A stretch of DNA of 64,000 nt from Pseudonocardia hierapolitana (GTDB lineage Bacteria > Actinomycetota > Actinomycetes > Mycobacteriales > Pseudonocardiaceae), in NCBI RefSeq assembly GCF_007994075.1, contig NZ_VIWU01000001.1:5084001-5148000 (forward strand), given 5' to 3'. Shown piece by piece: positions 33,653 through 60,947 of the stretch. The notes beneath the pieces are model-generated. The model saw only the letters and a list, made by a program, of their open reading frames with translations, did not search any database and was not told the DNA's origin. Numbering within the stretch: position 1 is the stretch's first letter; the number at the start of each line of letters is the position of its first letter. The translations under genes and the position numbers were made by a program.

Positions 33653-33698
33653 AAGGTGCCCGAGGTGGCGACGTCAGACCCACGCCGAAACCATGACG

Positions 33699-33719
33699 AC
33701 GCGGGGGAGGGGCGCCATG
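33699..33719 (+). repeat. 21-base leader identical to the pseudogene leader
   Basis: ACGCGGGGGAGGGGCGCCAT plus G (33699-33719) is identical to 21305-21325 and includes the ribosome site GGGGGAGGGG and the start codon. Weaker similarity extends about 40 bases further upstream in both places. Confidence 0.85.
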
Positions 33720-35042: not shown

Positions 35043-35050
35043 TCAGTCGG

Positions 35051-36355: not shown

Positions 36356-36404
36356 GCGTGCACCTTCGTCGTCATGGATCACCACAGCCATGATGGACCG
36401 AGGG

Positions 36405-40955: not shown

Positions 40956-42491
40956 ATGGGGGAGTCGGCTGAGCAACAGGGGAGTGTTCAGGGGACGAGG
41001 GGGGTCGTCGCAGGAACATCGACCGACCGAACGGTCGTAATGGGGGGATTTGGCGGGGCCGGGTGGCCGTACCGCTCGGGGGGCTGGCGAGTTCGCCGCC
41101 TGTTGCTCGTGGGTTGGGACGCCATCGGATGGGCGATCGCGCTGACCCTGGCGTTGGCGCTGCGGTACGAGTTCGATCTCGATGCCCGCGACGTCTCGGG
41201 GATCGTGCAGCTGATCGCCGTCGCCGTCGTCGCCCAGGTCCTCATCGGGGTGGCCCTGCAGGTATACCGCGGTCGACATTGCATCGGGAGCGTCGACAAC
41301 ATCGTCGACACGTCGGCGGCGATCGCTCTCAGCGGTTTCGTCGTGTTCGTGGCCAACGTCGTATCGGTCGCCGAGTGGATCCCGCGATCGGTCGCGATCA
41401 TCGGCACTCCGATCATGCTTTTGATCGCTGTCGGATCCCGCATCGGGGTGGGGTTGTATCGCGACCGCAGGTCACGGCCCGATCACAGCACCGCGCAACG
41501 TGTGATCATTTTCGGGGCGGGGGTCGAGGGCCAGCAGCTCTCGTGGTCGATGTTCACCGACCCGGATGCCCGTTACCTGCCGGTCGCGTTCCTCGACGAC
41601 GACCCGCGACGGCGCGCACTCAGGGTGTCCGGTGTCGGCGTGCAGGGCACGAGCGCCGACGTCGCCGAGGTGGCTGCCCGTTCCCAGGCCGATCTCCTCG
41701 CGATCACGGGCCACCACGTCGACGACGTCGCGATCCGCGAGATCACGCGCGTCGCCGCGGACGCCGGCCTCGAGGTGAAGGTCGTCGCGCCGTTGGCCGA
41801 GTTGCTCAAGCCCGTGCCGGCCGCGCTGCTGATCCCGTCGCAGGCAGGCTCGGCGGGGGGCGGCGGCCGCGCGGTGACGCGCCTCCCGGCGGCGGTCGAG
41901 AGCAGGGCCAAGCGCGTCGTGGACATCACGCTCTCCCTGATCGCGTTGATCGTCTTCCTCCCGGCCTTCGTCGTCATCCCTCTGGTGCTGATGCTCACCA
42001 GCGGTGAGGTCGTCTACCGGGCGAAGCGCGTGGGGCTGGGCGGCGAGATCTTCACGATGTTCAAGTTCACGACCATGGCGCCCGGTGACGGCGGGCCACG
42101 CCTCACCCGAGCCGGCGACCCGCGCATCACACGGTTCGGCCGCTGGCTGCGCGTGACCAAGTTGAACGAGCTGCCTCAGCTCGTCAACGTGGTCAAGGGC
42201 GAGATGAGCCTCGTCGGCCCGCGTCCGGAGGATCCGCGCTACGCCGCCTACTACTCGGCCGAGCAGCGGAAGGTGCTCGCCGTGCGACCCGGCCTGGCCA
42301 GCCTCGCGTTTCTCAGGTTCGGCGACGAGGAGGCGTACATCGAGCGGATCAACCCGCCAGACATCGAGACCTACTACCTGAACGAGCTCCTGCCGGAGAA
42401 GCTCGCCATCGAGCTCCGGTACGTCAGGAACTGGACGTTGCGAGGTGACTTCCGGATCCTCGCACGCACCCTGACAGGGCTCCTCAGGTGA
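40956..42491 (+). CDS. Full-length phosphoglycosyl transferase (WbaP/WcaJ type)
   Basis: Initiates the second glycan by placing a sugar phosphate on undecaprenyl phosphate. The 511 residues show a membrane half with four helices (about 49-165), a CoA-binding-like Rossmann domain (RVIIFGAGVEGQQL, 182-195), and the catalytic half: re-entrant helix about 322-346, VVYRAKRVGLGGEIFTMFKF, ITRFGRWLRVTKLNELPQLV and SLVGPRPEDPRY. The usual Asp-Glu dyad reads Asn 404-Glu 405; the short enzyme at 9913-10569 has Asp-Glu. ATG 40956 follows GAGG closely. It overlaps the next gene by 4 bases (GTGA), coupling translation. Confidence 0.88.
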   Translation: MGESAEQQGSVQGTRGVVAGTSTDRTVVMGGFGGAGWPYRSGGWRVRRLLLVGWDAIGWAIALTLALALRYEFDLDARDVSGIVQLIAVAVVAQVLIGVALQVYRGRHCIGSVDNIVDTSAAIALSGFVVFVANVVSVAEWIPRSVAIIGTPIMLLIAVGSRIGVGLYRDRRSRPDHSTAQRVIIFGAGVEGQQLSWSMFTDPDARYLPVAFLDDDPRRRALRVSGVGVQGTSADVAEVAARSQADLLAITGHHVDDVAIREITRVAADAGLEVKVVAPLAELLKPVPAALLIPSQAGSAGGGGRAVTRLPAAVESRAKRVVDITLSLIALIVFLPAFVVIPLVLMLTSGEVVYRAKRVGLGGEIFTMFKFTTMAPGDGGPRLTRAGDPRITRFGRWLRVTKLNELPQLVNVVKGEMSLVGPRPEDPRYAAYYSAEQRKVLAVRPGLASLAFLRFGDEEAYIERINPPDIETYYLNELLPEKLAIELRYVRNWTLRGDFRILARTLTGLLR

Positions 42492-43099
42492 CGGCGGAGC
42501 CGGACACCCACCAGGTGGCTGCCACGGCCGACGTCGCCGGCACCGCGCGAATCGGCCCCGGCACCCGTATCTGGCACCTGGCCCAGGTCGAGGACGGTGC
42601 GAGCCTCGGTCGTTCGTGCACCGTCGGGCGGGGGGCCTGCATCGGTCCCGGCGTCACGATCGGCGACCACGTCAAGATCCAGAACTACGCGCTCGTGTAC
42701 GCGCCGGCATCGCTCGGGCACGGGGTCTTCGTCGGGCCGGCGGCTGTGCTGACCAACGATCTCCACCCGCGCGCGGTCGACAGCGCCGGCCGGCTCAAGT
42801 CCGGCGACGACTGGACGCCCGTCGGTGTGGCCGTGCGCGAGGGCGCGTCGCTCGGTGCCCGCTCCGTCTGCGTCGCGCCCGTCGTCATCGGACGGTGGGC
42901 GATGGTCGGTGCCGGCGCCGTCGTCGTGTCGGATGTCCCCGATTTCGCGCTTGTCGTCGGGGTGCCGGCGCGCCGGATCGGGTGGGTCGGGCGGGCGGGC
43001 GTGCCGTTGCGGCAGGGGGACGACGGTCTGTGGAGCTGTCCGCAGACCGGAGAGCGTTACCACGAAGTGGACGGTAACTTGGATGACTTCCGCACCTGA
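42488..43099 (+). CDS. wbpD: Sugar N-acetyltransferase (WbpD-like left-handed beta-helix)
   Basis: Expected to acetylate the 3-amino group of UDP-2-acetamido-3-amino-2,3-dideoxy-glucuronate. The 203 residues are built of hexapeptide repeats (GTARIGPGTRIWHLAQVEDG, then SCTVGRGACIGPGVTIGD) with the WbpD/WlbB-type loop VFVGPAAVLTNDLHPRAV, where Asn-Asp-His bind substrate. GTG 42488 overlaps the upstream stop by 4 bases. The four genes from here to 46488 correspond to WbpD, WbpE, WbpB and WbpA, so the assignment is strengthened by context. The final ~30 residues (GDDGLWSCPQTGERY) form an extra tail also seen in many homologues. Confidence 0.88.
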   Translation: MTAEPDTHQVAATADVAGTARIGPGTRIWHLAQVEDGASLGRSCTVGRGACIGPGVTIGDHVKIQNYALVYAPASLGHGVFVGPAAVLTNDLHPRAVDSAGRLKSGDDWTPVGVAVREGASLGARSVCVAPVVIGRWAMVGAGAVVVSDVPDFALVVGVPARRIGWVGRAGVPLRQGDDGLWSCPQTGERYHEVDGNLDDFRT

Positions 43100-44198
43100 G
43101 AAGATCGGGATCGAGCCGATCCCGGCGAGTGGCCTCCAGCTCGGCGACGGTGAGCGGGCGGCGATCGAACGGGTTCTCGCATCGGGGATGCTGGCCCAGG
43201 GCCCGGAGGTCGCGGCGTTCGAGGCGGAGTTCGCCGAGCACGTGGCCGGGCGACCTTGTGTCGCGGTGAGCTCCGGCACGAGCGCGCTCCTGCTCGGATT
43301 GCTCGCGCTCGGCATCGGACCGGGCGACGAGGTCGTCGTGCCGTCGTTCAGTTTCGCCGCCACCGCGAACACCGTCGTTCTGGCCGGGGCGCGCCCGGTG
43401 TTCGTCGACATCGAGCCGCGCCACTTCGATCTCGATCCCGATGCCGTGCGCGCGGCGATCACCGAGCGGACGGCGGCGATCGTCGCCGTGCACCTCTACG
43501 GCCACCCCGCCGCGATGGCGCTGCTCACCGAGATCGCGGACGCCCATGGGCTCGCCATCGTGGAGGACGCGGCTCAAGCGCATCTCGCCCGGCTGGCGGG
43601 CCGGCCGGTGGGCACCTTCGGACCGGTTGCGGCCTTCAGCTTCTACCCGACCAAGAACATGACCACCGGCGAGGGCGGCATGGTGGTGTGCGCGGACGAC
43701 GCCACGGCGCGGCGCGTCCGGCTCCTCCGCAACCAGGGCATGGAGAAGCGGTACGCCAACGAAGTGGTCGGTTACAACGCCCGCATGACGGACCTCCAGG
43801 CGGCGATCGGTCGGGTGCAGCTGAGCCGTCTTCCGGAATGGACGAACACCCGGCGGCGCAATGCGGCGTTCCTGACCGAGGCCCTCGGCGCGGTGGCGGC
43901 ACGCTCGGGTCTCGTGCTGCCCTCGGTCGCACCTGCGGCGGAGCCGGTGTGGCACCAGTACACCGTCCGTGCGCCACGCCGCGACGACGTCGTGGCGCGG
44001 CTGTCGGAACTCGGCGTGCCGACCGGGGTCTACTACCCGACCCCGATCCACCGGCTCCCGGCCTACGACCTCGATCTCGACCTACCCCGAACGGCTGAGG
44101 CGGCCAGGCAGGTCCTTTCCCTGCCGGTCCACCCCAACCTGTCGGCGGCGCAACTCGACCACATCATCGACGCGGTGGAGAGGGCGGTGTCCTCGTGA
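43083..44198 (+). CDS. wbpE: DegT-family 3-aminotransferase (WbpE-like)
   Basis: PLP aminotransferase predicted to convert UDP-3-keto-GlcNAcA to the 3-amino sugar, with glutamate as donor. The 371 residues have SSGTSALLLGLLALGIGPGD, PSFSFAATANTVVLAGA, AIVEDAAQAHLAR and the Schiff-base lysine 191 in FSFYPTKNMTTGEGG, the sequence typical of WbpE. GVYYPTPIHRLPAY is the late substrate loop. ATG 43083 lies inside the preceding gene (17-base overlap), and the family starts here (IEPIPASGLQLGDGE). Its stop overlaps the next start (GTGA). Reaction inferred from family plus the complete set of partner genes. Confidence 0.9.
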   Translation: MTSAPEKIGIEPIPASGLQLGDGERAAIERVLASGMLAQGPEVAAFEAEFAEHVAGRPCVAVSSGTSALLLGLLALGIGPGDEVVVPSFSFAATANTVVLAGARPVFVDIEPRHFDLDPDAVRAAITERTAAIVAVHLYGHPAAMALLTEIADAHGLAIVEDAAQAHLARLAGRPVGTFGPVAAFSFYPTKNMTTGEGGMVVCADDATARRVRLLRNQGMEKRYANEVVGYNARMTDLQAAIGRVQLSRLPEWTNTRRRNAAFLTEALGAVAARSGLVLPSVAPAAEPVWHQYTVRAPRRDDVVARLSELGVPTGVYYPTPIHRLPAYDLDLDLPRTAEAARQVLSLPVHPNLSAAQLDHIIDAVERAVSS

Positions 44199-45196
44199 AC
44201 GGCATCCTGCGCGCGGGGCTTGTCGGCCTCGGTCATATGGGCCGCCATCACGTGCGTGTGCTCCGGAGCCTGCCGGGCGTCGAGTTCGTCGCGGCGGTCG
44301 ACGCGCGCGAGGACGTGCGGCAGCGTGGCGCCGCGACCGGTCTCGAGGTGGTGGAGTCGGTATCGGAGCTCGTCCGGCGGGGGATCGACCTGTGTGTGGT
44401 GTCCTCACCGACCGGCACCCACGAGGAGATCGCGCTCGAGCTCGCCGAGGCCGGCGTCGCCACGCTCATCGAGAAGCCCGTCTCGCACAGCTCGAAGTCG
44501 GCGCAGAAGATCCTCGAGGCCTTCCAGCGGTCCGGAGTGGTCGGCTGCGTCGGGCACATCGAGCGGTACAACCCGGCCCTGCAGCAGATGCGCCTACGGC
44601 TCGACCACGGAGAGCTCGGCGAGCTCTACCAGGTTTTCACCCGGCGCCAGGGACCCTTCCCCGCGCGCATCGCCGACTCCGGTGTGATCATGGACCTGGC
44701 CAGTCACGACATCGACCTGACGGCGTGGGTGACCCGATCGTCGTACCGTTCGATCGCGGCGCGCACCGCTCACCGGAGCGGGCGCGAGCACGAGGACCTC
44801 GTGAGCACCGTCGCCGAGCTGGAGAACGGCGTGGTGGTGACGCACCTGGTCAATTGGCTGTCGCCGCTCAAAGAACGGGTGACGACCGTGACGGGCGAGC
44901 GCGGGTGCTTCACCGCCGACACGGTCACGGCCGACCTGACCTTCTTCAAGAACGGGTCCGAGCCGGTGCAGTGGGACCGGGTGGCGTCCTTCCGCGGGGT
45001 GACCGAGGGCGACATGATCAGGTACGCGATCCCCAAACCTGAACCGCTGTCCACGGAACTGTCGAACTTCGTGGCAGCCGTCCGTGGTGAGGCCGCGGAG
45101 GTCGTATCCCTGGAGGAGGGGCTCGTCACCGTGCGGGTGGCCGAGCTGATGCGCGAGTCCGCCAGGGCGGGCCGCACCGTCGAGGTCGTCCTGTGA
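44195..45196 (+). CDS. wbpB: UDP-GlcNAcA 3-dehydrogenase-like oxidoreductase (WbpB/WlbA)
   Basis: Gfo/Idh/MocA enzyme; WbpB oxidises C3 of UDP-N-acetyl-glucosaminuronate so that the partner aminotransferase can act. The 333 residues contain the Rossmann loop AGLVGLGHMGRHHVRVL (7-23), VVSSPTGTHEE, the lysine motif LIEKPVSHSS, GCVGHIERYNPALQQM and MDLASHDIDLTAWV with the catalytic His. GTG 44195 overlaps the aminotransferase stop by 4 bases and its own stop overlaps the next start. WbpB-type enzymes are known to recycle cofactor with 2-oxoglutarate, linking them to the WbpE step. Confident by family and context. Confidence 0.88.
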   Translation: MNGILRAGLVGLGHMGRHHVRVLRSLPGVEFVAAVDAREDVRQRGAATGLEVVESVSELVRRGIDLCVVSSPTGTHEEIALELAEAGVATLIEKPVSHSSKSAQKILEAFQRSGVVGCVGHIERYNPALQQMRLRLDHGELGELYQVFTRRQGPFPARIADSGVIMDLASHDIDLTAWVTRSSYRSIAARTAHRSGREHEDLVSTVAELENGVVVTHLVNWLSPLKERVTTVTGERGCFTADTVTADLTFFKNGSEPVQWDRVASFRGVTEGDMIRYAIPKPEPLSTELSNFVAAVRGEAAEVVSLEEGLVTVRVAELMRESARAGRTVEVVL

Positions 45197-46488
45197 GAGT
45201 CACCGTCGTGGGCCTGGGCAAGATCGGGCTCCCGCTCGCCGTGCAGTTCGCCGGACGGGGCCATCACACCGTCGGGGCGGACATCGACGAGTCCGTGATC
45301 CGGGCCGTCGAGGACGCGCGACCCCCCTTCCCCAACGAGGCCGATCTCGACGAGCGACTCGCCAAGGTCGTCGCGGACGGGTTTCTCGAGGCGACGACGG
45401 ACACCGCCGCCGCGGTCGCGGCCGGCGAGGTCGTCGTCGTGGTGGTCCCGTTGTACGTCGATGCCCGTGGGGAGCCGGAGTTCTCCGCGATCGACGCGGC
45501 AACCCGGGACATCGGCCGTGGCCTGCGGCCGGGCACGCTGGTCACGTACGAGACGACACTCCCGGTCGGTACGACGCGCAACCGGATCGCCGCTCGGCTC
45601 GGGGAGGCGAGCGGGCTGCGTGCCGGAGGGGACTACTTCCTGGCGTTCAGCCCGGAGCGCGTGTCGTCCGGCCGCGTGTTCCGTGACCTCGCCCGGTACC
45701 CCAAGCTCGTCGGCGGTATCGACGACGAGAGCGGCCGGCGCGCCGTCGACTTCTACAACAGCGCGCTCGACTTCGAGGAACGCGACGACCTCCCGCGGCG
45801 GAACGGGGCATGGGACCTGGGGTCGGCGGAAGCCGCCGAGCTGGCCAAGCTGGCGGAGACGACCTATCGCGACGTGAACATCGGCCTCGCGAACCAGTTC
45901 GCGCTGTACGCGGAGAGCATCGGCGTCGACTTCCTCGAGGTCGCCGCGGCCTGCAACTCGCAACCGTTCAGCCACCTGCACCGTCCCGGTATCGCGGTCG
46001 GCGGCCACTGCATCCCGGTGTACCCGTGGTTCTACCTGGGTGGTGACCCGGCGGCGACGATCGTGCGTGCTGCTCGCGAGGCGAATCGGGCGATGCCGGA
46101 ACGCTGTGTGGACATGCTGGCCGAGCGGTACGGCGACCTGACCGGAGCGGTCGTCGTGGTGCTCGGCGCGTGCTACCGGGGCGGGGTGAAGGAGACGGCG
46201 TTCTCGGGGGTCTTCGCGACGGTCGACGCGTTGCGCCGGCGCGGAGCACGGCCCCAGGTCGAGGATCCCCTGCTGACCGCGGAGGAGCTCTCCGGTCTCG
46301 GCCTGGAGCCGTACCGCTCCGGCACGGTCGTCGACGCCGCTGTGCTGCAGGCCGACCACGTCGAGTACCAGGAGTTGACGCCGAGCGACCTACCCGGGGT
46401 GAAGGTGGTTCTCGACGGACGGGGGGTCCTGGACCCCGCGCGGTGGCCCGGAGTACCGGTCTTGCGCCTGGGTCGCGGCAGCAGATGA
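45193..46488 (+). CDS. wbpA: UDP-GlcNAc/ManNAc 6-dehydrogenase (WbpA/WecC-like)
   Basis: NAD-dependent enzyme oxidising C6 of a UDP-N-acetylhexosamine to the uronate, the first step of the sugar made by this operon. The 431 residues show VVGLGKIGLPLAVQFA (5-20), VPLYVD, TTLPVGTTRNR, AFSPERVSSGRVF, KLAETTYRDVNIGLANQFA and catalytic Cys 273 in GIAVGGHCIPVYPWF. The C-terminal UDP-binding domain has GACYRGGVKETAFS. GTG 45193 overlaps the previous stop by 4 bases. It is distinct from the UDP-glucose dehydrogenase at 49829-51145. The choice between GlcNAc and ManNAc rests on the WbpB/E/D partners, which favour GlcNAc. Confidence 0.87.
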   Translation: MRVTVVGLGKIGLPLAVQFAGRGHHTVGADIDESVIRAVEDARPPFPNEADLDERLAKVVADGFLEATTDTAAAVAAGEVVVVVVPLYVDARGEPEFSAIDAATRDIGRGLRPGTLVTYETTLPVGTTRNRIAARLGEASGLRAGGDYFLAFSPERVSSGRVFRDLARYPKLVGGIDDESGRRAVDFYNSALDFEERDDLPRRNGAWDLGSAEAAELAKLAETTYRDVNIGLANQFALYAESIGVDFLEVAAACNSQPFSHLHRPGIAVGGHCIPVYPWFYLGGDPAATIVRAAREANRAMPERCVDMLAERYGDLTGAVVVVLGACYRGGVKETAFSGVFATVDALRRRGARPQVEDPLLTAEELSGLGLEPYRSGTVVDAAVLQADHVEYQELTPSDLPGVKVVLDGRGVLDPARWPGVPVLRLGRGSR

Positions 46489-47423: not shown

Positions 47424-47448
47424 AACGGACGAAGGGGGGAGCCACGTC

Positions 47449-48087
47449 GTGATCACGCCGAAGAGAGTTCTCGTCCTGTCCCCGCACACGGACGACGCGG
47501 AGCTGGGCTGCGGGGGCACGATGGCCCGTTGGATCGACGAGGGCGCGGAGATGTTCACGGCCGCGTTCTCGACCGCCGAGAAATCCTTGCCTCCGGGCTC
47601 CAAGGAGTACCGCCTGAAGGACGAGTGCCACCTGGCGCTCGACGAGATCGGCGTCCCACGGGCGAACCGGTTCATCTTCGACTACCCGGTCCGGGAGCTC
47701 GGCTACCACCGTCAGGAGGTGCTCGAGCAGATGGTCCGTCTCAACCGGGAGCTCGAGCCCGAGGTCATCCTCTCGCCGTCCGGAACCGACCTGCACCAGG
47801 ACCACGCCGTGGTCCACAACGAGTGCGTCCGGGTGTTCCGACATCTGACGATCATGGGCTACGAGCTGCCGTGGAACCACATCACGTTCCCGACTCAGGC
47901 GTTCGTGGTGCTCCAGGAGGAGCACCTCCGCCGGAAGTGGGCCGCCTTGACGAAGTACGAGAGCCAGCTCGAGATGGCCAGGCCGTACTTCCGCTACGAC
48001 TTCATCGAGTCGATGGCGAGGGTCCGCGGCGTGCAGGTGAAGACCGAGTTCGCCGAGGCGTACGAGATGATCAGGATCCGTCTGTGA
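47449..48087 (+). CDS. PIG-L/LmbE-family deacetylase
   Basis: Zinc N-deacetylase of the type acting on GlcNAc-containing small molecules or lipids. The 212 residues have the metal motif LSPHTDDAELGCGGT (His 13, Asp 16), DECHLALDEIGV, and the second motif SPSGTDLHQDHAVVHNECVR with the third metal His. No signal peptide, so it acts in the cytoplasm on a precursor. GTG 47449 follows GAAGGGGGGA. Its stop overlaps the WbqC start (GTGA), so the two are made together. PIG-L and WbqC neighbours often occur in O-antigen loci, where they may modify an amino sugar before a further group is added. Confidence 0.87.
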   Translation: MITPKRVLVLSPHTDDAELGCGGTMARWIDEGAEMFTAAFSTAEKSLPPGSKEYRLKDECHLALDEIGVPRANRFIFDYPVRELGYHRQEVLEQMVRLNRELEPEVILSPSGTDLHQDHAVVHNECVRVFRHLTIMGYELPWNHITFPTQAFVVLQEEHLRRKWAALTKYESQLEMARPYFRYDFIESMARVRGVQVKTEFAEAYEMIRIRL

Positions 48088-48776
48088 TCGTCTCGGTGCA
48101 CCAACCGAACTTCGCACCGTGGCTCGGGTTCTTCGACAAGATGGTGCACTCCGACGTCATGGTCCTGCTGGACTCGGTCCAGTTCATCAAGCGTGGGTAC
48201 CAGAACCGGGCGAAGATCAAAGGGACTGGCGGGCCGCAGTGGCTGACGATCCCCGTCATCTCGAAGGGACGGTACGACCAGCTCACCCGTGACGTCGAGA
48301 TCGACGAAAGCCGCGGCTGGCGGAGCGTGCACCTCCGGACGCTGCAGAGCGTGCTCGCCAAGGCTCCGCACCGCGACGAGGTGCTGGACTTCCTCGATCC
48401 GATCTACGCCAAGGAGGAGCTGCACAACCTCGCGGACTTCAACACCGCGCTGATCCGCGGCGTCGTCGAGCGCCTCGGTATCACGACGCAGCTGCTCATG
48501 GCGTCGGAACTCGGCTGTCAAGGCAGCTCGTCGCGGCTCATGCTGAACCTGACCAAAGCGGTCGGCGGCGAGACGTACCTGTCCGGTCCCAGCGGCAGCA
48601 ACTACCTCGAGCCGGAGATGTTCCCCGCCGAAGGAGTGAAGCTGCAGTACCACCGTTTCGAGCCGTTCGAGTACCCGCAAGCGTTCCCGCCGTTCGCCCC
48701 AGGGCTCAGTTGCCTCGACTACCTCGCGAACGTCGGGTTCCGTCTCTGGGGCGGGTCCACCGCGTGCGGAACTTGA
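48084..48776 (+). CDS. wbqC: WbqC-like family protein
   Basis: WbqC-like proteins occur in amino-sugar and O-antigen loci; their chemistry is not well established. The 230 residues start with the signature VSVHQPNFAPWLGFFDKMV and contain VLLDSVQFIKRGYQNRAKIK, WLTIPV, and LGCQGSSSRLMLNLTKAVGG, all conserved in the family. Then come SGPSGSNYL and YPQAFPPFAPGLSCLDYLAN near the C-terminus. GTG 48084 overlaps the PIG-L stop by 4 bases. The last 71 bases overlap the convergent GT2 gene, unusual among these genes, and the final residues (RLWGGSTACGT) look less family-like. Family sure; function unknown. Confidence 0.82.
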   Translation: MIVSVHQPNFAPWLGFFDKMVHSDVMVLLDSVQFIKRGYQNRAKIKGTGGPQWLTIPVISKGRYDQLTRDVEIDESRGWRSVHLRTLQSVLAKAPHRDEVLDFLDPIYAKEELHNLADFNTALIRGVVERLGITTQLLMASELGCQGSSSRLMLNLTKAVGGETYLSGPSGSNYLEPEMFPAEGVKLQYHRFEPFEYPQAFPPFAPGLSCLDYLANVGFRLWGGSTACGT

Positions 48777-51470: not shown

Positions 51471-52895
51471 TCAGAGAGCGGCGACAGTCGCGATCAACTC
51501 CTCGTACCAGTGCTTCTCCCGCGCGGTGCGTAGTACCTCGTCATTGTGCCAGAGGATGCCGATGGTGCCGCCGTATCGTCGGCACTGCTGGGCGATGCGC
51601 AGCGTCGCGCGGGCGGCGTCGTCCGGGACGAGAGACATATGGCCGAAAAGGGACACGTCCATCACCTGGAACGGCTTCTCGACGAGGTCCAGCGGTGTGC
51701 GCGCCAGCAGATCGAATACGGGGAATTCACGACTCGTGCCCGTCCGGAAGCCCACGGCTTCACTGAAGGCGACCGAGCAGTCGTACTTGAGCCCTGCTGC
51801 ACCCCAGTTCCGCCATGTGTGCGGATTCCTCCACTGCAGGTAGTGCTGCCGGCCGCCCCAGGACTCCTGAGCGATGCCCTGACCCTCGGCCGCGGTGCGC
51901 AGGCGGTCGAACTCCTCCGCCGTGGCCGCAGCGTCGCGATACGTGCCGAACCCCGCGTGCAATCCGATCTCGTGACCGCGCCGATGGACGCGTCTCATCA
52001 GGTCCTGGACCCAGGGATGATCGAACAACTGGTAGCGCGGAGCTGCCGGATCCGCGTCGCCTCGGGCGAGGAAGTAGAAGGAACTGCGCAAGGAGTGACG
52101 CTCGCTGACGTCCATGAGGAACTCGAAAGTGTTGTTCGGGTCGGTGTCGTAGCGCCCGCGGCGTGCGTCGACGACCGCACGCACCCGACGCAGCGCGAGC
52201 CCGACGTCTCGGCGCCGGACCAGGTCGCCCGCAAACTGACGGGCCAGCATGCGGGGGCGGCGTCCTACGGTCGACAACGGGTCGTCCACGTCGTGGGTCA
52301 ACATCACCTGGTATCGGTGGCGCCGGAACTCCATGCGCGGCCACACCCTGCCGAGGGCCGCGGCGAGCAGTGCGACGTACGCGTCGACCACTGGTGACTC
52401 CACGAAGCCCTCGGCGAACGCGAGCGTCGATGCCAGGGGGAAGCGGTCGTAGGTGTCGCGCGCAGCAGCCATGACGACTTCCTCGTACCTCGTGAGCATC
52501 GCGAATGCGCTGCCGAACACGTCGACGTCGAGGCGCACACCCTGCTCGCACTGCTCGGCGAGGTTGGCCGACGGGGGCGAGGAACCGCCGTAGAGGACGG
52601 GCAGTTGCTCCTCGGCATCCAGCACCCCGGCCGCGGCCTGACCCACTCGCCGTCTCGGCAGCGGTCTCGACGGCAGCGCGGAGTCGGTCAACCACTGGTC
52701 GGGCGCAGTGCTGAAGAGGGCATCCGGCGTCGTCACGGCTGCACCGTCCGGATCCTCGGCGAGGCCGATCCTGACGTCCGGACGCTCGTGCGTCACGAGG
52801 CTCCAGTCGAGCCCCAGCCAGTCGCCGAGAACGACGCCCAGGACGTAGCGGCGCTCCTCCTGGTATCCAGCTGGAGCCGAGACGAGGAGGGTCAT
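51471..52895 (-). CDS. Polysaccharide deacetylase-like protein (NodB domain, large N-terminal domain)
   Basis: 474 residues without a signal peptide. The first half (LGDWLGLDWSLVTHERPDVR, then EQLPVLYGGSSPP) resembles the DUF7033-type domain found before such deacetylases. The second half is NodB-like: YQVMLTHDVDDPLSTVG as motif 1, SSFYFLARGDADP, RRGHEIGLHAGFGTYRDA (metal His region), GGRQHYLQWRNPHTWRNW and GTIGILWHND. The motif-1 T-H-D-V-D-D departs from the usual TFDDG, a known variant in this subfamily. ATG 52895 is 7 bases after the upstream stop, so it is in an operon with the beta-helix lipoprotein. Cytoplasmic deacetylase of a glycan precursor or an unrelated hydrolase are both possible. 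Confidence 0.75.
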   Translation of the reverse strand: MTLLVSAPAGYQEERRYVLGVVLGDWLGLDWSLVTHERPDVRIGLAEDPDGAAVTTPDALFSTAPDQWLTDSALPSRPLPRRRVGQAAAGVLDAEEQLPVLYGGSSPPSANLAEQCEQGVRLDVDVFGSAFAMLTRYEEVVMAAARDTYDRFPLASTLAFAEGFVESPVVDAYVALLAAALGRVWPRMEFRRHRYQVMLTHDVDDPLSTVGRRPRMLARQFAGDLVRRRDVGLALRRVRAVVDARRGRYDTDPNNTFEFLMDVSERHSLRSSFYFLARGDADPAAPRYQLFDHPWVQDLMRRVHRRGHEIGLHAGFGTYRDAAATAEEFDRLRTAAEGQGIAQESWGGRQHYLQWRNPHTWRNWGAAGLKYDCSVAFSEAVGFRTGTSREFPVFDLLARTPLDLVEKPFQVMDVSLFGHMSLVPDDAARATLRIAQQCRRYGGTIGILWHNDEVLRTAREKHWYEELIATVAAL

Positions 52896-52902
52896 CCGCT
52901 GC

Positions 52903-54018
52903 TTACTGTTCGTACGGCCCGACGTCGAACCCCTGAGACTGGGGCCGCGGCGCACGGTCGAATGCGAATCGCAGGGCTACCTCCGGCTCCCCGGTGTCGA
53001 TGGCCGGGCTGGTCGGCGCGAGCCGGTAGTCGCCCGATCCGTCCGCCGCGAAGTTCACGAACTGCGGGTCCGCGACGATCGTGCCCGCCTCGTCGCCGCC
53101 GTTGATCTGGATGGCGTCCCGGTCGTTGCCCCACAGGAGGTTGTTCACGAACCGGTTGCCGTCGCCCGACTCCCCGGTCTCCCGGATACCCTCGCGACCG
53201 TTGTCGACCACGATGTTGTTGGCGATCAGGGAGTTGCCGGTCTCGTACTCGTCGTCATCCGCGCCGACGACGATCCCGCCCTCCGGGTTGTTGAACACGA
53301 GGTTGTTCACGATCGCGAGACTGTTGCAGGCGTGCCAGCACTGGATGCCGTAACCGGTGTTGCCGTAGGAGATGTTGTTGGCCACCCGGCCACCCCGGTG
53401 GGTGACGTAGATGCCGTGGTCGAGCTTGTCCTCCCCACAGTCGAACGTGACGTTGCTGAGCACATCGACGTCGGTGACGCTGTAGTCCTCGTTCTGCACG
53501 TAGATGCAGTTGCCGGCGATGCCGTGCACCCGGTTCCTCATCAGCCGCGCCTGCGAACCCTTGTTGTACAGCCCGTCCGCGTTCGGTCCCGTGATGTCGA
53601 ACCCCACGATGTCGACGTAGGCGCCCTCGTTCTCCCAGGCTCCGTCCGTGCCTCCGACGCCGACGATCCGGGTGTCGGGCGACTCGGCGATGAACGTGAT
53701 GCGTTGGCTCTCGGTGCCGCTGGCCGCCGTGCGGACGTCGCCCTCGTAGGTGCCGGCCCGGACGAGGATCGTGTCCCCGGGTTGGGCGCGCCCCGCGGCC
53801 GCGTCGATCGTGCGCAGCGGCGCGGCGGCCGTGCCCTCCGCGGCGTCGTCACCGTCGAGAGCGACGACGAGCGCGGCGGCGTCGAGGGCTGGTGCCGTCG
53901 GCGGCGCCGGGTAGACGCTGTTGGGTGGCCTCTGCGGTGATGGCTCGGGGGATTCCTGGGCGCACGCCGCCAGGGCCGCCACGACCAGTGCCGCGGTGAT
54001 CGTCCGCCCGTACCTCAT
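52903..54018 (-). CDS. Lipoprotein with right-handed parallel beta-helix
   Basis: Surface-attached protein probably binding or cleaving a polysaccharide. The 371 residues have a signal peptide and lipobox ALAAC (MRYGRTITAALVVAALAAC), a Pro-rich linker, then a parallel beta-helix: LRTIDAAAGRAQPGDTILVR as opening cap followed by rungs such as RLMRNRVHGIAGNCIYV, NNISYGNTGYGIQCWHAC, IVNNLVFNNPEGGIVVG and NRFVNNLLWGNDRDAIQI. PQSQGFDVGPYEQ is the common C-terminal motif. Such folds occur in polysaccharide lyases and epimerases, but no catalytic set can be named. ATG 54018 is chosen as the signal-peptide start. Operon with the deacetylase. Confidence 0.8.
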   Translation of the reverse strand: MRYGRTITAALVVAALAACAQESPEPSPQRPPNSVYPAPPTAPALDAAALVVALDGDDAAEGTAAAPLRTIDAAAGRAQPGDTILVRAGTYEGDVRTAASGTESQRITFIAESPDTRIVGVGGTDGAWENEGAYVDIVGFDITGPNADGLYNKGSQARLMRNRVHGIAGNCIYVQNEDYSVTDVDVLSNVTFDCGEDKLDHGIYVTHRGGRVANNISYGNTGYGIQCWHACNSLAIVNNLVFNNPEGGIVVGADDDEYETGNSLIANNIVVDNGREGIRETGESGDGNRFVNNLLWGNDRDAIQINGGDEAGTIVADPQFVNFAADGSGDYRLAPTSPAIDTGEPEVALRFAFDRAPRPQSQGFDVGPYEQ

Positions 54019-55519: not shown

Positions 55520-56635
55520 ATGCCCTGTAACGTCTGCACTCGGGGCAACGCGTTAGCGTATGTGGAGCAAGCGAGCTCGGTCCGGAGTGACGCAGGTGGC
55601 ACAACGTCGGCGGCAGACGAGCTCGTGACCGGAGCCGGCGTCACCGACGAGATCCCGTGGGCGCACACCCCGTTCGAGCAGCGGTGGTGGTTGGAGGCCG
55701 TGGCCCCCGGTCAGTGGGGGGAGACGCTCGTCGAGCGGCAGGGGAAGATCGTGGCCAGGCTTCCCTGGGTGCGCCGCCGCAAGCTCGGAGTCACCGTGCT
55801 CACGCAGCCGCCGCTGACCCGGTTCGTCGGTCCGTGGATCCAGACCGGGGAGGGCAAGTACGAGACCCGGCTCGTCGCCGAGCACGAACTGATGGCGGAG
55901 CTGATCGCGAGGCTGCCGAGGTTCGACTCGTACCGCGCATCCTTGGCCCCGGCGATCACGAACTGGTTGCCGTTCTACTGGGCGGGGTTCGACGCGACGG
56001 TGCGCTACACCTACCGCCTCGACGATCTCAGCGATCCCGACCGGGTGTGGAACGGTCTCCGCTCGAACATCCGCAACCACGTCCGTCGCGCGAGCCGGCA
56101 GTTGGAGGTGCGCACCGACCTGGGCGTCGACGAGGTCTTGACGATCAACCGGAAGGTCTTCGCCCGGCAGGGGCTGCCGGTGTCCTTCAGCGACGCGCTG
56201 GCACACCGGCTCGACCACGCATGCCGGGCGCGGAGGGCGCGGAGCGTCCTGGCCGCGGTCGACGCCGACGGCCGGGTCCACGCCGCCTGGTTCTTCGTGC
56301 ATGATGCGACGACGACCTATCTGCTGTTCGGTGGCGGCGATCCGGAGTTGCGCTCGAGTGGCGCGAACAGCCTCGTCGTCTGGGAGGCGATCCGCAGGGC
56401 CTGTGAGACGTCGCAGAGTTTCGACTTCCTCGGCTCGATGATCGAGCCCATCGAGCGGTTCAACCGCGCCTTCGGCGCCCGTCAGGTGCCGTACTTCTTC
56501 GTTTCGCGTACTCGGCCGCACGCGCGGCTGCTGTTCGGGGCCCGCGACGCCGCACGCCTCGCGCGCGCACTGACCGACGCCCGTCGCCGTGGAGGCGAGG
56601 AGTCGACCCCGACGGGGGAAGGCACGTCTGGCTGA
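55520..56635 (+). CDS. FemAB-like / GNAT-fold acyltransferase 3 (tandem copy A)
   Basis: The 371 residues belong to the FemAB-like GNAT group of exopolysaccharide loci: IPWAHTPFEQRWWLEAVAPG, GKIVARLPWVRRRKLGVTVL, PPLTRFVGPWI, NIRNHVRRASRQLEV, the motif FARQGLPVSFSDALAHRLDH, HAAWFFVHDATTTYLLFGG, LRSSGANSLVVWEAI and FDFLGSMIEPIERFNRAFGA. The last two are the substrate-binding C-half motifs. The start is uncertain: ATG 55520 or GTG 55562, neither with a clear ribosome site. A close paralogue begins 23 bases downstream. Expected to add an amino acid or acyl group to a lipid-linked sugar. Donor unknown. Confidence 0.78.
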   Translation: MPCNVCTRGNALAYVEQASSVRSDAGGTTSAADELVTGAGVTDEIPWAHTPFEQRWWLEAVAPGQWGETLVERQGKIVARLPWVRRRKLGVTVLTQPPLTRFVGPWIQTGEGKYETRLVAEHELMAELIARLPRFDSYRASLAPAITNWLPFYWAGFDATVRYTYRLDDLSDPDRVWNGLRSNIRNHVRRASRQLEVRTDLGVDEVLTINRKVFARQGLPVSFSDALAHRLDHACRARRARSVLAAVDADGRVHAAWFFVHDATTTYLLFGGGDPELRSSGANSLVVWEAIRRACETSQSFDFLGSMIEPIERFNRAFGARQVPYFFVSRTRPHARLLFGARDAARLARALTDARRRGGEESTPTGEGTSG

Positions 56636-56658: not shown

Positions 56659-57729
56659 GTGGCGGTTGTGTCTGCGCTGCGTCCGATGACACCATGCCCG
56701 TTTGCCGATGAGCTACCGAGCGAAGCTGGCGTGATCGACGAGATCCCCTGGGCGCACACCCCGTTCGAGCAGCGGTGGTGGTTGGAGGCCGTGGCCCCCG
56801 GCCAGTGGGGGGAGACGCTCGTCGAGCGCCAGGGGAAGATCGTGGCCAGGCTTCCCTGGGTGCGCCGCGGTCGGCTGGGTGTCACCGTGCTCAGCCAGCC
56901 GCCGCTGACCCGCTTCTTCGGTCCGTGGCTTCATGCCTCGGCAAGCAGGTACGAGGCTCGGCTCAGGAACGAGCGCGATCTGATGACCGAGCTGATCGCG
57001 AAGCTGCCGAGGTTCGATGCGTACCGCGCGAGCTTCGCCCCGACTGTCACGAACTGGTTGCCGTTCTACTGGGCCGGCTTCGACGCCACGGTGCGGTACA
57101 CCTACCGGCTCGACGATCTCAGCGATCCCGACCGCCTGTGGGACGGCGTCGGCAAGAACGTCCGCAACCACGTCCGCCGCGCGAGCCGGCTGCTGGAGGT
57201 GCGTACCGACCTGGGCGTCGACGACGTCCTTCGGATCAACCGGAAGGTCTTCGCCCGGCAGGGACTGCCGGTGTCCTTCAGCGACGCGCTGGCACACCGG
57301 CTCGACCGCGCTTGCCAGGCGCGGGGGGTGCGGAGCGTTCTGGCCGCGGTCGACGCTCGCGAGCGGGTCCACGCCGCCCAGTTCTTCGTGCGGGACGCGA
57401 CGACGACCTACTCGCTCTTCGGCGGCGCCGATCCGGAGTTGCGCTCCAGCGGTGCGCACAGCCTCGTCGTCTGGGAGGCGATCCGCAGGGCCTGTGAGAC
57501 GTCGCAGAGTTTCGACTTCCTCGGCTCGATGATCGAGTCCGTCGAGCGGTTCAACCGTGCCTTCGGAGCGCGCCAGGTGCCGTACTTCTTCGTTTCACGT
57601 ACTCGGCCGCACGTGCGGCCGATGCTCGCCGCCCGCAGTGCTGCGACACGCCTCGCGCGCGCAGCGGCCGACGCTCGTCGGGCCAGGGGTGGGGAATCAG
57701 GCCCGACCGGGGAAGACGGGCCTGGTTAG
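56659..57729 (+). CDS. FemAB-like / GNAT-fold acyltransferase 4 (tandem copy B)
   Basis: 356 residues, aligned to the preceding protein from IDEIPWAHTPFEQRWWLEAV to the end, with long stretches of identical DNA (for example the segment coding for WAHTPFEQRWWLEAVAPG). All motifs of copy A are kept (FARQGLPVSFSDALAHRLDR, FDFLGSMIESVERFNRAFGA). The variable part is the region around FGPWLHASASRYEARLRNER, which may change acceptor choice. GTG 56659 follows AGGTGAGC. Tandem duplication with both copies intact suggests two successive additions or two acceptors, as with FemA and FemB. Convergent with the formyltransferase fusion (33-base overlap). Confidence 0.8.
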   Translation: MAVVSALRPMTPCPFADELPSEAGVIDEIPWAHTPFEQRWWLEAVAPGQWGETLVERQGKIVARLPWVRRGRLGVTVLSQPPLTRFFGPWLHASASRYEARLRNERDLMTELIAKLPRFDAYRASFAPTVTNWLPFYWAGFDATVRYTYRLDDLSDPDRLWDGVGKNVRNHVRRASRLLEVRTDLGVDDVLRINRKVFARQGLPVSFSDALAHRLDRACQARGVRSVLAAVDARERVHAAQFFVRDATTTYSLFGGADPELRSSGAHSLVVWEAIRRACETSQSFDFLGSMIESVERFNRAFGARQVPYFFVSRTRPHVRPMLAARSAATRLARAAADARRARGGESGPTGEDGPG

Positions 57730-59217
57730 CCGTTCGCGCACCGACACGAAGCCCTCGGCGAGCATGTACCCGGAGTGTCCACCGCGGACTCTCGCCAGGG
57801 CCTCGATGTACTCGAAGCTGCGCGGGTGCCGCCCTCCGATCATCTCGGTGGGATAGCACTCCAGCGCCTTGACCTTGCGGTCCCACACGGACTCGACATC
57901 GATGTACGTGGTGGGGTTGAAGACGTAGTCTCCGACCTGTGGCGCCTGGTCGGTGGACGACGGTGTCTCGAACGTCAGGAAGCGGCTGACGGTCGATCCC
58001 AGCGGGGTCATCGGCCTGCTGGCCGCGTAGACCGCCTTGAAGACCACCTGGTGGTCCGTGTTCGCGTCGCCGCCGTGGTGGGTGTAGATGACGGTCGGAC
58101 GGTGCGTCCCGATTGCCGCCTCGACCGTCTTGATCAGCTCGATGAAGGGGACCGAGTCCAACCGTTGGTCGGGGAAGTCGTGGAACTCCACCGTCGCGAT
58201 GCCCAGTTCCTCGGCCGCGGCGAGGGCACATTCACGGCGTGTCTCGCACCGGGGGGTGTGCGCGAGCTTCTCCTCCTCGCCCTCCGACATGATCACGACC
58301 GTGACCTCGCTGCCGGCCTCGGCGTGCAGCGCGAGCGTGCCGCCGACCCCGAGCGTCTCGTCGTCGGGATGGGCCACGACGCAGAGCACCTGTTGGTACA
58401 TCGGGTCGTGCTGGAGCCGCCGCGGCGGCGGGAGCTGCAGCTCGGGGGCTGCGCGCGCCTTCTCGATCAGCACCGGTACGCCGTCGCCGGCGTAGGTGTG
58501 GGCCACCGGGTACGGCGGCGCGAGTGCCCGGATCAGGTTGACGACCTCGTGGGCAGGCCTGGTCCAGTCGATCTCGCCGTCGGCGGGCGTGCGCCTGCGG
58601 GTGTACGTGCCAGCGCCCTCCGGCTGCGGGGTGCGTGGTGCCGTGCCGTCGAGGACGGCGTCGAGATGCCTCTCGAGCAGGCGGACAGTGGCGTCGTCGG
58701 CCTTGCGCAGCACGTCCGCGGCGTCGTCGTCCTCCTCGATGGCGAACCGCTCGACCGCGATGACGTCGCCGGTGTCGATCCCCTCGTCCATGTAGAACAT
58801 CGAGATGCCGGTCTCGGTCAGCCCGTCGACCATGGCCCAGATGAGCGGCGAGCAGCCGCGGCGGCCCGGCAGCACGGCCGAATGGAAGCCGATGACCCCG
58901 CCGGGCGGGACGTCGAGGATCGCCGGCGGGATGACCTGGGAGAAGCCGACGACGATGATCACATCCGGGGCGAGCTCCCGGATCTCGTCGACGTGGTGCT
59001 TGATGCGCCTGATCTTGCGCAGCCGACCGGGCTCGACCAGGTCGTCGAATGCGCGGAAGCCCGAGACCCGCGACGCCTCGGAATCGTCGAGGACGAAGGC
59101 GGCGACCAGGTCGGCCCGCGGGTGCCGGAGGAGGACCTCGACGGCGCGGCGACCGTCGTCGAGCCCTCCGATGAACACCACCCGCGGTGCCGGTCCGGCG
59201 GTCGTCTCTGCGGACAT
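57697..59217 (-). CDS. Bifunctional formyltransferase-PIG-L deacetylase fusion
   Basis: One 506-residue chain with two opposing chemistries. Residues 10-255 are a 10-formyl-THF-dependent formyltransferase: VVFIGGLDDGRRAVEVLL, GVIGFHSAVLPGRRGCSPL with His 112, MDEGIDTGDVIAVE with Asp 148 and the C-terminal GEIDWTRPAHEVVNLIRAL. The usual Asn of the N-x-H triad is Gly 110, as in a 'GFH' subgroup. Residues 275-506 are a PIG-L deacetylase: VLCVVAHPDDETLGVGGTLA (His 283, Asp 286) and YTHHGGDANTDHQVVFKAVY. ATG 59217 follows GAGGGGGCAG; the upstream gene ends 8 bases before, giving an operon. A simple reading is deacetylation of an N-acetyl sugar followed by N-formylation. Strong domain evidence; coupling inferred. 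Confidence 0.85.
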   Translation of the reverse strand: MSAETTAGPAPRVVFIGGLDDGRRAVEVLLRHPRADLVAAFVLDDSEASRVSGFRAFDDLVEPGRLRKIRRIKHHVDEIRELAPDVIIVVGFSQVIPPAILDVPPGGVIGFHSAVLPGRRGCSPLIWAMVDGLTETGISMFYMDEGIDTGDVIAVERFAIEEDDDAADVLRKADDATVRLLERHLDAVLDGTAPRTPQPEGAGTYTRRRTPADGEIDWTRPAHEVVNLIRALAPPYPVAHTYAGDGVPVLIEKARAAPELQLPPPRRLQHDPMYQQVLCVVAHPDDETLGVGGTLALHAEAGSEVTVVIMSEGEEEKLAHTPRCETRRECALAAAEELGIATVEFHDFPDQRLDSVPFIELIKTVEAAIGTHRPTVIYTHHGGDANTDHQVVFKAVYAASRPMTPLGSTVSRFLTFETPSSTDQAPQVGDYVFNPTTYIDVESVWDRKVKALECYPTEMIGGRHPRSFEYIEALARVRGGHSGYMLAEGFVSVRERLTRPVFPGRA

Positions 59218-59225
59218 CTGCCCCC

Positions 59226-60764
59226 TCATCCCCCTTCAGGCCGTGGACGCGGTCGCGGCGACGGGCGCTGCGCGGTGGCGGCGAGCACCGCCTCGGATGG
59301 CGGATGTGCCACCGGTGCCGGTGCCTGCGGCGGCGGGGGCGGACCGTCGCGCCCTCCCGGCACCGGCGATGAGGAGCCGGGCGACACAGACCACGGCCCG
59401 ACGGCGTACTGGGTGCCGACGCTGCTGGCGAGGTACGCGTCGTCCCCGCCGTCGTTCTTGCCCTGAACCATCGTCAGCACCGAGCCGAGCAGCCGTGCGG
59501 ACACCGTGCGGAGGGCAAGCGTCGCTTCCTCGGCCGCCGACGTCGTCGTCTTCCCCCAGCGCACCACCAGCACGACACCGTCCACCCGCGGAGCGAGGAC
59601 GGATGCGTCCGACACGGCGCCCAGAGGTGGCGAATCGATGATCACGACGTCGTACCGGGCGCGCACGTCAGCGAGGAGCCGGTCCATCGTCGGCTGGCTG
59701 AGCAGCTCGCTGGGGTTCGGTGGCAGCGGCCCGCTGGGCAGGACGTCGACGGCGTCGTGCCACCGGTGCACGGCCGGCATCCAGTTCACGCGGCTGGCGA
59801 GGACATTGGTCAACCCGACGGTGCGGTCGATCCCGAACAGGTCCGCGGCGCGGGGGTGGCGGAAGTCGGCCTCGATCACCAGCACGCGTTTGCCCGCGTC
59901 GGCCATCGCCAGGGCGAGGTTGCACACCGTCGTCGTCGTGCCCTCGTCCGGGCCGGCGCTCGTGAGCAGGATCGTCCGGTGGGCGTCGTGCACGTTGATG
60001 GACTGCAGGTTGGCGCGCAGCTGCCGGAACGCCTCGGCCACCCGGCCCCTGGGGCGCTCGCGGAAGGCGAGGCGGTGCGCCCGGACGTCGTTGTCGTCGG
60101 CGATCACCCCCAGCACCGGGGCGTCGACGGCGCGGCGCAGCTGATCGCGGGACTTGACGGACCGGTCGAGGGCGTTGCGCAACAGCGCGTAGCCGATTCC
60201 GGCGAGGAGCCCGAGAACGAGACCGAGCGCGATGTTCAGCAGCGGCCGCGGCTGTGTCGGCGATGTCGGTGGGACGGCCGACTCGAACGTCCGGGCGGTG
60301 ACCACCGGTGGGGTCTGCGGGTCCGGCTGCTCCAGCTCTGCGACGTTGGCGTTGAACCTCTCGGCCAGGGTGTTCGCGATGTCCGCGGCCCGCTGCGGCG
60401 ACTCGTCCTCGACGGTCGCGGTGAGCAACAGGGTGTCCGGTGTGGTGCTCGCGCTGATCTTGTCCAGCACCTCGTCGGCGGTGATCCCGCCCCCCATCCG
60501 CTCCGCCACCTGCGAGGCGACCCGTTGGCTGCGCAGCACCTCGAGGTAGGTGGCCATCCGCTGAGCGGACAGGTCACCGCCCTCAACGGCCGCGGCCACG
60601 TCACCACCGGGAGATCGCGCGGAGACGAAGATGGTGACCGAAGCCGCGTACGTCGGCGGCACGAGCACGGTGACACCAACGGCGACGAGCAGGCCCAGCA
60701 GAAGCCCGGCTATGACGGACCGCCATCGAGCGCCGAGTACGTCCAGACACTCCCGCGGTGTCAC
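59226..60764 (-). CDS. Wzz/BY-kinase-type chain-length protein, Walker A lysine missing
   Basis: Polysaccharide co-polymerase fused to a BY-kinase-like ATPase. The 512 residues have TM1 about 17-37 (VIAGLLLGLLVAVGVTVLV), an outside domain, TM2 about 174-196 and a cytoplasmic ATPase half: SAGPDEGTTTTVCNLALAMA (269-288), Walker A' VLVIEADFRHP (294-304) and Walker B VVIIDSPPLG (373-382). The usual GEGKST is DEGTTT, so the phosphate-binding lysine is Thr 276. The tail is Pro-rich with few tyrosines. GTG 60764 leads directly into TPRECLDVLGARWRS; an ATG at 60827 is less likely. It is upstream of the fusion gene in one operon. It should still regulate length; kinase activity is doubtful. Confidence 0.85.
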   Translation of the reverse strand: MTPRECLDVLGARWRSVIAGLLLGLLVAVGVTVLVPPTYAASVTIFVSARSPGGDVAAAVEGGDLSAQRMATYLEVLRSQRVASQVAERMGGGITADEVLDKISASTTPDTLLLTATVEDESPQRAADIANTLAERFNANVAELEQPDPQTPPVVTARTFESAVPPTSPTQPRPLLNIALGLVLGLLAGIGYALLRNALDRSVKSRDQLRRAVDAPVLGVIADDNDVRAHRLAFRERPRGRVAEAFRQLRANLQSINVHDAHRTILLTSAGPDEGTTTTVCNLALAMADAGKRVLVIEADFRHPRAADLFGIDRTVGLTNVLASRVNWMPAVHRWHDAVDVLPSGPLPPNPSELLSQPTMDRLLADVRARYDVVIIDSPPLGAVSDASVLAPRVDGVVLVVRWGKTTTSAAEEATLALRTVSARLLGSVLTMVQGKNDGGDDAYLASSVGTQYAVGPWSVSPGSSSPVPGGRDGPPPPPQAPAPVAHPPSEAVLAATAQRPSPRPRPRPEGG

Positions 60765-60947
60765 ACGCAACCCCCGTCTCCCGGGCGCCAGCGCCCAGGA
60801 TCTGTTGGCAATCTCACAACTCCCCATACAGGTCGTCGCGCTCGAGGCCCAACCGTTACTCGCTCGGGGAAGCACTTTCCACCTCAGTTCGTCCCGGTTC
60901 TCAGCGGGTTTTCAGGTTCCGGCGGGTCCTGCGCGCTGATCGGTAGC
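60765..60947. promoter_or_regulatory. Divergent promoter region, Wzz/BY-kinase and PAP2
   Basis: These 183 bases separate two divergent genes and are somewhat AT-richer than the flanks. No clear operator or consensus promoter could be picked out by eye. Confidence 0.35.

Follow-up and report, generated by a model that had tools for sequence, protein, structure and literature searches.

A conserved fusion of an Asn-less formyltransferase with a PIG-L deacetylase domain in Pseudonocardia hierapolitana, and its probable part in sugar N-acyl exchange

The characterised sugar N-formyltransferases ArnA, VioF, FdtF, and WbkC act on amines made by aminotransferases, and in the ArnA/ArnD pathway the formyl group is transient. 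Nonulosonic acids derive one of their nitrogens from GlcNAc (C2, later C5); another is introduced by an aminotransferase (C4, later C7) and has an acyltransferase of its own. N5 of 5-N-formyl-legionaminic acid starts as the GlcNAc N-acetyl group (Kandiba in 2012 reportedly studied the structure of the formyl sugar). Since UDP-GlcNAc-derived sugars begin with an N-acetyl at C2, a formyl group at C2 must replace an acetyl. No enzyme pair for such a replacement was found in the literature searched, mostly by title and the start of the abstract; further papers on nonulosonic acids, searched by term, gave neither "formyl" nor "deacetyl," and papers on flagellin glycosylation mentioned formyltransferases and no deacetylase.

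Halorubrum sp. PV6 makes 5-N-formyl-legionaminic acid with the formyl group reported at N5, not N7 (PMC6137143). In the same paper, genes 1046-1051 are reported to be co-transcribed, gene 1050 is a possible N-formyltransferase in the authors' view, and the published products of genes 1046-1051 and 1053 measure 1139, 1025, 722, 1163, 953, 629, and 1053 bp (PMC6137143); the main text makes no mention of gene 1052. Another report (PMC4388273) describes a catalytic Asn as crucial for FMT, ArnA, and GART; in it, the corresponding FDH hydrolase residues of interest here are Ser87, Ile104, and Phe135; about 50% of the hydrolase activity is kept in I104A and less than 10% in I104N. As the FDH hydrolase is active without the Asn, an Asn-less site can act on 10-formyl-THF, which is no proof of amine transfer.

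The window analysed here, a stretch of 64,000 nucleotides from Pseudonocardia hierapolitana, encodes both kinds of domain in one protein:

57697..59217, minus strand: fused formyltransferase (FT)-PIG-L protein (P0001), 506 aa (ORF, Pfam, relatives, predicted structure)
58444..59187, minus strand: FT half, about residues 11-258, a Rossmann part and a shortened C-terminal part (Pfam, structure match over 11-269, alignments)
57715..58395, minus strand: PIG-L half, about residues 275-501 (Pfam, structure match over 274-500, invariant columns)

An FT followed by a PIG-L domain in a single polypeptide was what the initial annotation had read here, and this was confirmed at complement(57697..59217), with an ArnA-like FT first. 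Formyl_trans_N (residues 74-181), Formyl_trans_C (210-258), and PIG-L (278-399) all score above their Pfam cut-offs; no NCBIfam model reaches its cut-off on the 506-aa protein, and the PIG-L half scores below those for BshB and MshB. The predicted structure has a mean pLDDT of 90.9 and a pTM of 0.69, the latter making the relative placement of the two halves uncertain. By structure, the first half matches ArnA transformylase and the second BshB deacetylase; among the sugar N-formyltransferases matched by the FT half (ArnA, VioF, FdtF, and WbkC), ArnA is the closest. As a sugar N-formyltransferase, P0001 has the Formyl_trans_N domain and fold and the catalytic His and Asp (H112 and D148, by alignment), and lacks the Asn of the Asn-His-Asp set, having Gly110 there. 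As a PIG-L/LmbE deacetylase, it has the domain, the AHPDDE motif, and the distal His (H283, D285, D286, E287, D388, and H389 being the motif residues of this half).

The fusion is real and conserved. Both PF00551 and PF02585 are found in 109 of the 120 relatives listed (178 found), the query included, at 34-100% identity; the same two-domain order, which the initial annotation had proposed to look for, therefore exists elsewhere, and an artefactual fusion was rejected on this ground. Sources of these relatives include Pseudonocardia and records labelled Saccharibacteria, Tectomicrobia, and Actinomycetota, and several JGI names give both halves, so that the FT-PIG-L architecture is already in databases. 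In 50 sequences, His112 and Asp148 of the FT and H283, D285, D286, E287, H380, D384, N386, D388, and H389 of the PIG-L half are invariant. Among the genomes searched the full fusion is rare, the window's own being the only one (1 of 62 in the genus, 1 of 390 in a family sample, 1 of 396 in a phylum sample). Separate FT and PIG-L genes are present in two genomes of the genus (G477 and G013) and one of the order (G039). The initial annotation had regarded such separation in relatives as a possible mark of an artefact; it is read here as favouring a functional linkage instead.

In a tree of FT domains, 13 of the 14 sampled fusions form one clade (support 0.97), the deeper order being weakly supported, while the fusion P0120 groups with the separate FTs of two loci (L071 and L076) and is perhaps a second fusion event. 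Two other proteins (P0099 and P0118) have an FT domain 70-71% identical to that of the fusion, joined to methyltransferase or GT2 glycosyltransferase domains and not to PIG-L. A plasmid or phage origin was rejected: no record covers 80% of the query, and the partial matches are to 207 plasmid and 25 phage records.

As separate genes, FT and PIG-L are a recurrent pair in sugar-biosynthesis clusters across many phyla, in bacteria and some archaea. The scan for split relatives covered many phyla and kept the best 80 of 391; this sample is not random, being chosen by score and with the ETPSSTDQ segment as one of its two search patterns (L017-L019 were left out of the counts). Counts over these loci are uncorrected for relatedness. 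An FT domain lies at most 250 bp from the PIG-L gene in 36 of these best 80 and at most 1.2 kb away in 43; in the other 37 there is no FT over that distance, and PIG-L of this type must therefore also function unaccompanied by an FT. In five loci (L038, L042, L043, L057, and L074) the FT is one gene further, with NeuB between it and PIG-L. NeuB is present in 55 of the best 80, and over 83 loci from the best-scoring relatives the commonest neighbour clusters are NeuB/PseI (49), DegT/PseC (45), PseG (40), and PseB (31), with PseB PseC PseF PseG FT PIG-L NeuB as a recurring gene order. The short FT of the split pair has an uncharacterised relative with a solved structure (1zgh). The P. hierapolitana genome has ten other PIG-L genes, and these served as a small control: no FT is found within 10 kb of any of them.

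FTs abutting PIG-L are Asn-less. The catalytic Asn is present in 0 of 36 of them and in 7 of 20 other FTs (Fisher p 3e-4, best-scoring loci), a pattern rather than a count of independent events, since the sequences are related; three FT domains with unreadable motifs (L032, L036, and L041) were left out. In its place the 36 have C (14), G (11), V (5), I (4), L (1), and S (1). Most of the 13 non-abutting Asn-less FTs are the five FT-NeuB-PIG-L cases and FTs with an HES motif; an FT thus need not abut PIG-L to lack the Asn. The P. hierapolitana genome encodes six further FTs, all with the Asn. Among database relatives of more than 400 aa, the position is Gly in 102 of 104, with one Ser and one gap (P0097, P0098, P0099, P0117, and P0118 were left out of this count). 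The initial annotation took Gly for Asn as the sign of a specialised site; it does mark a different site, but one that is family-wide and not special to P0001. Of 76 FTs compared, 65 are Asn-less and 11 Asn-bearing. Position 93 is Ser in 54 of the former and in none of the latter; at position 141, 58 of the Asn-less sequences have Phe or Leu and 10 of the Asn-bearing ones have His. All 14 fusions sampled have Ser93-Gly110-Phe141. In alignment, the FDH hydrolase numbering differs from that of P0001 by a constant offset of six.

Archaea were searched in 392 genomes from the phylum of a Methanoregula genome (L041); 40 had a match at 1e-30, and four strong matches (L144-L147) were examined. L144 has the order DegT, PseB-like, PseF-like, NeuC, FT, NeuD, then PIG-L and NeuB on the opposite strand, so that FT and PIG-L are on opposite strands with NeuD between. 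Its seven ORFs besides PIG-L are, stop codons included, 1140, 1026, 723, 1164, 954, 630, and 1059 bp long, and the cluster matches the published one of PV6 in gene order and ORF lengths; the PIG-L gene occupies the place of PV6 gene 1052. The genome is probably that of Halorubrum sp. PV6 or a sister species. Its FT has Ser93, Gly110, and Phe141, and no second FT was found within the 19.5 kb stretch examined. L146 has PIG-L, NeuB, and an FT with Gly110 but Arg93 and Tyr141; L147 has PIG-L with WbqC; and in L145, which has PIG-L and NeuB, the stretch examined gave no FT.

The following features of the window may bear on the substrate of the fusion:

59226..60875, minus strand: chain-length protein with a tyrosine-autokinase domain (Wzz/BY-kinase; domain matches), directly upstream of the fusion gene
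40956..42491, plus strand: polyprenyl-phosphate sugar transferase (TIGR03025, 246 bits, below the cut-off of 296)
42488..43099, plus strand: WbpD-like hexapeptide acetyltransferase, 203 aa (sequence reading; 70% identical to L109:4601-5260)
42825..44198, plus strand: WbpE-like DegT aminotransferase, homology from about 43100 (PF01041, 409 bits; PseC model below its cut-off)
44195..45196, plus strand: WbpB-like Gfo/Idh oxidoreductase (PF01408; NF040723, UDP-GlcNAc 3-dehydrogenase, 201 bits, below the cut-off of 450)
45193..46488, plus strand: WbpA-like nucleotide sugar dehydrogenase (TIGR03026, 277 bits, above the cut-off of 190)

The stop codon of the Wzz/BY-kinase gene lies inside the ribosome-binding region of the fusion gene, so the two are probably translated together. 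The link to Wzz/BY-kinase genes proposed in the initial annotation is a weaker point: such a gene adjoins the fusion here, but the split relatives are more often found with NeuB or with a polyprenyl-phosphate sugar transferase, the latter directly following PIG-L in 8 of 17 loci examined, and do not support Wzz/BY-kinase as a defining partner. The sugar transferase of the window is a possible user of the edited sugar.

WbpD/E/B/A form the route to UDP-GlcNAc3NAcA, and the run at 42488-46488 may be read as its likeness, the dehydrogenase alone passing an NCBIfam cut-off, at subfamily level; the L109 homologue of the WbpD-like gene matches TIGR03570 below its cut-off. In G477, a run 65-77% identical to that of the window adjoins the split FT/PIG-L pair, in a locus that also has a PseB-like gene, a second DegT gene, and a sugar transferase. 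Given the run in both places, the substrate of the fusion could be UDP-GlcNAc3NAcA or a bacillosamine-type sugar. Among the 62 genomes of the genus, 5 have a WbpA-like gene, 3 have FT/PIG-L relatives, and 2 have both (hypergeometric p 0.015), a suggestive link from a single test; in the other three of the five with a WbpA-like gene, the cut-off used gave no FT/PIG-L relative. A nonulosonic acid role in the Pseudonocardia host was rejected, its genome having no match to the NeuB-type synthase model (PF03102), which was positive in 9 of 14 control genomes.

A second PIG-L gene in the window overlaps a WbqC-family gene (47326-48776, plus strand; PF02585 63 bits, PF08889 225 bits). WbqC and PIG-L occur together, 1-6 genes apart, at 7 of the loci from the best 80 of 391 relatives, and also in archaeal L147; they may be another N-acyl editing pair. 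A DUF7033 protein (51471-52955, minus strand) is a distant relative (148 bits, cut-off 440) of VimE, a UDP-2,3-diacetamido-glucuronate deacetylase; it shares the locus with WbpA-like genes and is possibly its third deacetylase. Two similar FemAB-type GNAT genes lie in tandem at 55520-56635 and 56659-57729 (plus strand), the second and the fusion gene, which is on the opposite strand, overlapping by 33 bases at the latter's 3' end. Two similar sets, at 5300-7807 (minus strand) and 33693-36571 (both strands), each have a glutamate-1-semialdehyde-aminotransferase-like gene adjoining a C-methyltransferase-type gene, which suggests a duplicated sugar module.

With moderate confidence, P0001 is proposed to be a bifunctional enzyme that acts on a nucleotide-activated sugar of the exopolysaccharide and exchanges its N-acetyl group for N-formyl. 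The PIG-L half, presumably a zinc enzyme, would deacetylate a nucleotide-activated amino sugar at its N-acetyl group, and the Asn-less FT half would then transfer a formyl group from 10-formyl-THF onto the freed amine. The position edited would most likely be the C2 amine inherited from UDP-GlcNAc, and a candidate substrate is UDP-GlcNAc3NAcA or its 3-amino precursor, from the WbpD/E/B/A-like genes of the locus; we infer both activities, their order, the position, and the substrate. Acetyl-to-formyl exchange had been suggested in the initial annotation, along with channelling of the free amine and action on the polymer's building block; the exchange itself is supported by the recurrent FT/PIG-L pair and by the archaeal cluster matching that of a formyl-sugar producer, the latter being the strongest clue. 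The archaeal case serves as an analogy from a different sugar, NeuB being absent from the Pseudonocardia host. Also telling against exchange are the role of the Asn in FMT, ArnA, and GART, the opposite strands of FT and PIG-L in L144, Arg93 and Tyr141 in the FT of L146, L145 with no FT found nearby, the 37 of the best 80 loci with no FT near PIG-L, the 8 of 30 paired NeuB loci discussed below, and the three genomes of the genus with a WbpA-like gene and no FT/PIG-L relative at that cut-off.

A rather unlikely alternative, the best of those considered, is that one sugar undergoes two independent edits. The FT would formylate the aminotransferase-made amine (C3 or C4), in the role of PseH, PglD, or WbpD, and PIG-L would expose the C2 amine, to be left free or re-acylated by, e.g., WbqC or a FemAB-type GNAT. 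The characterised FTs that the fusion matches (ArnA, VioF, FdtF, and WbkC) do act on such amines, DegT genes lie beside the pair in G477 and other non-NeuB loci, and PIG-L is often without an FT and, in the window, beside WbqC. The 30 NeuB loci with a paired Asn-less FT (from the best 80 of 391 relatives) divide on this question: 8 have no second acyltransferase, as two edits would allow, but 22 have a GNAT, a NeuD-like gene, or a second FT. GNATs are found in 16 of these 30 and in 9 of 25 unpaired NeuB loci (p 0.28). As they are not depleted in paired loci, and 22 of 30 have another acyltransferase candidate, the FT seems not to replace the acyltransferase of the other amine. The GNAT profile of these loci is only PseH-like (52 bits, cut-off 93); a second FT lies 0.7-0.8 kb away in L034, L045, L047, L061, and L081, Asn-bearing in three and of the Asn-less HES type in two. 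Also against two edits, the window already encodes a WbpD-like acetyltransferase to act on the C3 amine, and the PV6-like cluster has NeuD, with the formyl group reported at N5 and not N7 (PMC6137143).

More doubtful still is a reading in which only the PIG-L half edits the sugar, the FT half either hydrolysing 10-formyl-THF or being degenerate and serving to bind substrate. The Asn is lost, the three positions (Ser, non-Asn, Phe) are like those of the FDH hydrolase domain, the best studied Asn-less relative being a hydrolase, and one relative (P0097) keeps PIG-L without a recognised FT domain; however, the FT is kept beside PIG-L across phyla with His112 and Asp148 invariant in the 50 sequences, and the PV6-like cluster, of the formyl-sugar producer type, has no other FT in the 19.5 kb examined. 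Transient protection, in which PIG-L would later remove the formyl group added by the FT, recalls ArnA, the closest match of the FT half, and the transient formyl of its pathway, but is very improbable: unless the two reactions took place at different times, a single chain with both halves would run a futile cycle, and the archaeal product retains its formyl group.

Exchange of N-acetyl for N-formyl by P0001 could extend to its relatives. It is plausible, if tentative, that FT and PIG-L constitute an undescribed and widespread N-acyl exchange module with an FDH-like Asn-less FT, which would convert the C2 N-acetyl of UDP-GlcNAc-derived sugars to N-formyl in bacteria and archaea, and would supply the missing deacetylation step (HrrPV6_1052) for 5-N-formyl nonulosonic acids. 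If so, 2-N-formyl sugars are predicted in actinobacterial exopolysaccharide, and N-formyl sugars become predictable from genomes; clusters that now bear the labels "Met-tRNA formyltransferase" and "LmbE family" would be open to a new reading, and the gap in the archaeal legionaminic acid pathway becomes directly testable. The Asn-less site would then also be a test of how much of the textbook catalytic set is required for formyl transfer to an amine.

Compared with ArnA transformylase and the sugar N-formyltransferases WbkC, VioF, FdtF, and Rv3404c, the FT of P0001 is without the catalytic Asn; it is fused to PIG-L and not, as in ArnA, to a UDP-GlcA oxidase/decarboxylase (PRK08125, 140 bits, cut-off 777), and the amine it uses is probably another one. 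Unlike the PIG-L/LmbE deacetylases BshB, MshB, and chitobiose deacetylase, its PIG-L half is fused to an FT, and relatives of that half are recurrently paired with FTs. It resembles the hydrolase domain of FDH (ALDH1L1) in having a non-Asn residue at the same place and Ser and Phe at two further positions, but has no Pfam match to the carrier and aldehyde dehydrogenase domains of FDH. The cluster with the order and lengths of that for 5-N-formyl-legionaminic acid in PV6 likewise holds an Asn-less FT and a PIG-L gene; there the genes are separate, NeuB is present, and the sugar has nine carbons, whereas P0001 is fused and its host has no NeuB. With the folds of sugar N-formyltransferases and PIG-L deacetylases but without the Asn of the former, P0001 is neither ArnA nor FDH. 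It is a conserved fused version of the widespread FT/PIG-L pair, and most likely exchanges N-acetyl for N-formyl.
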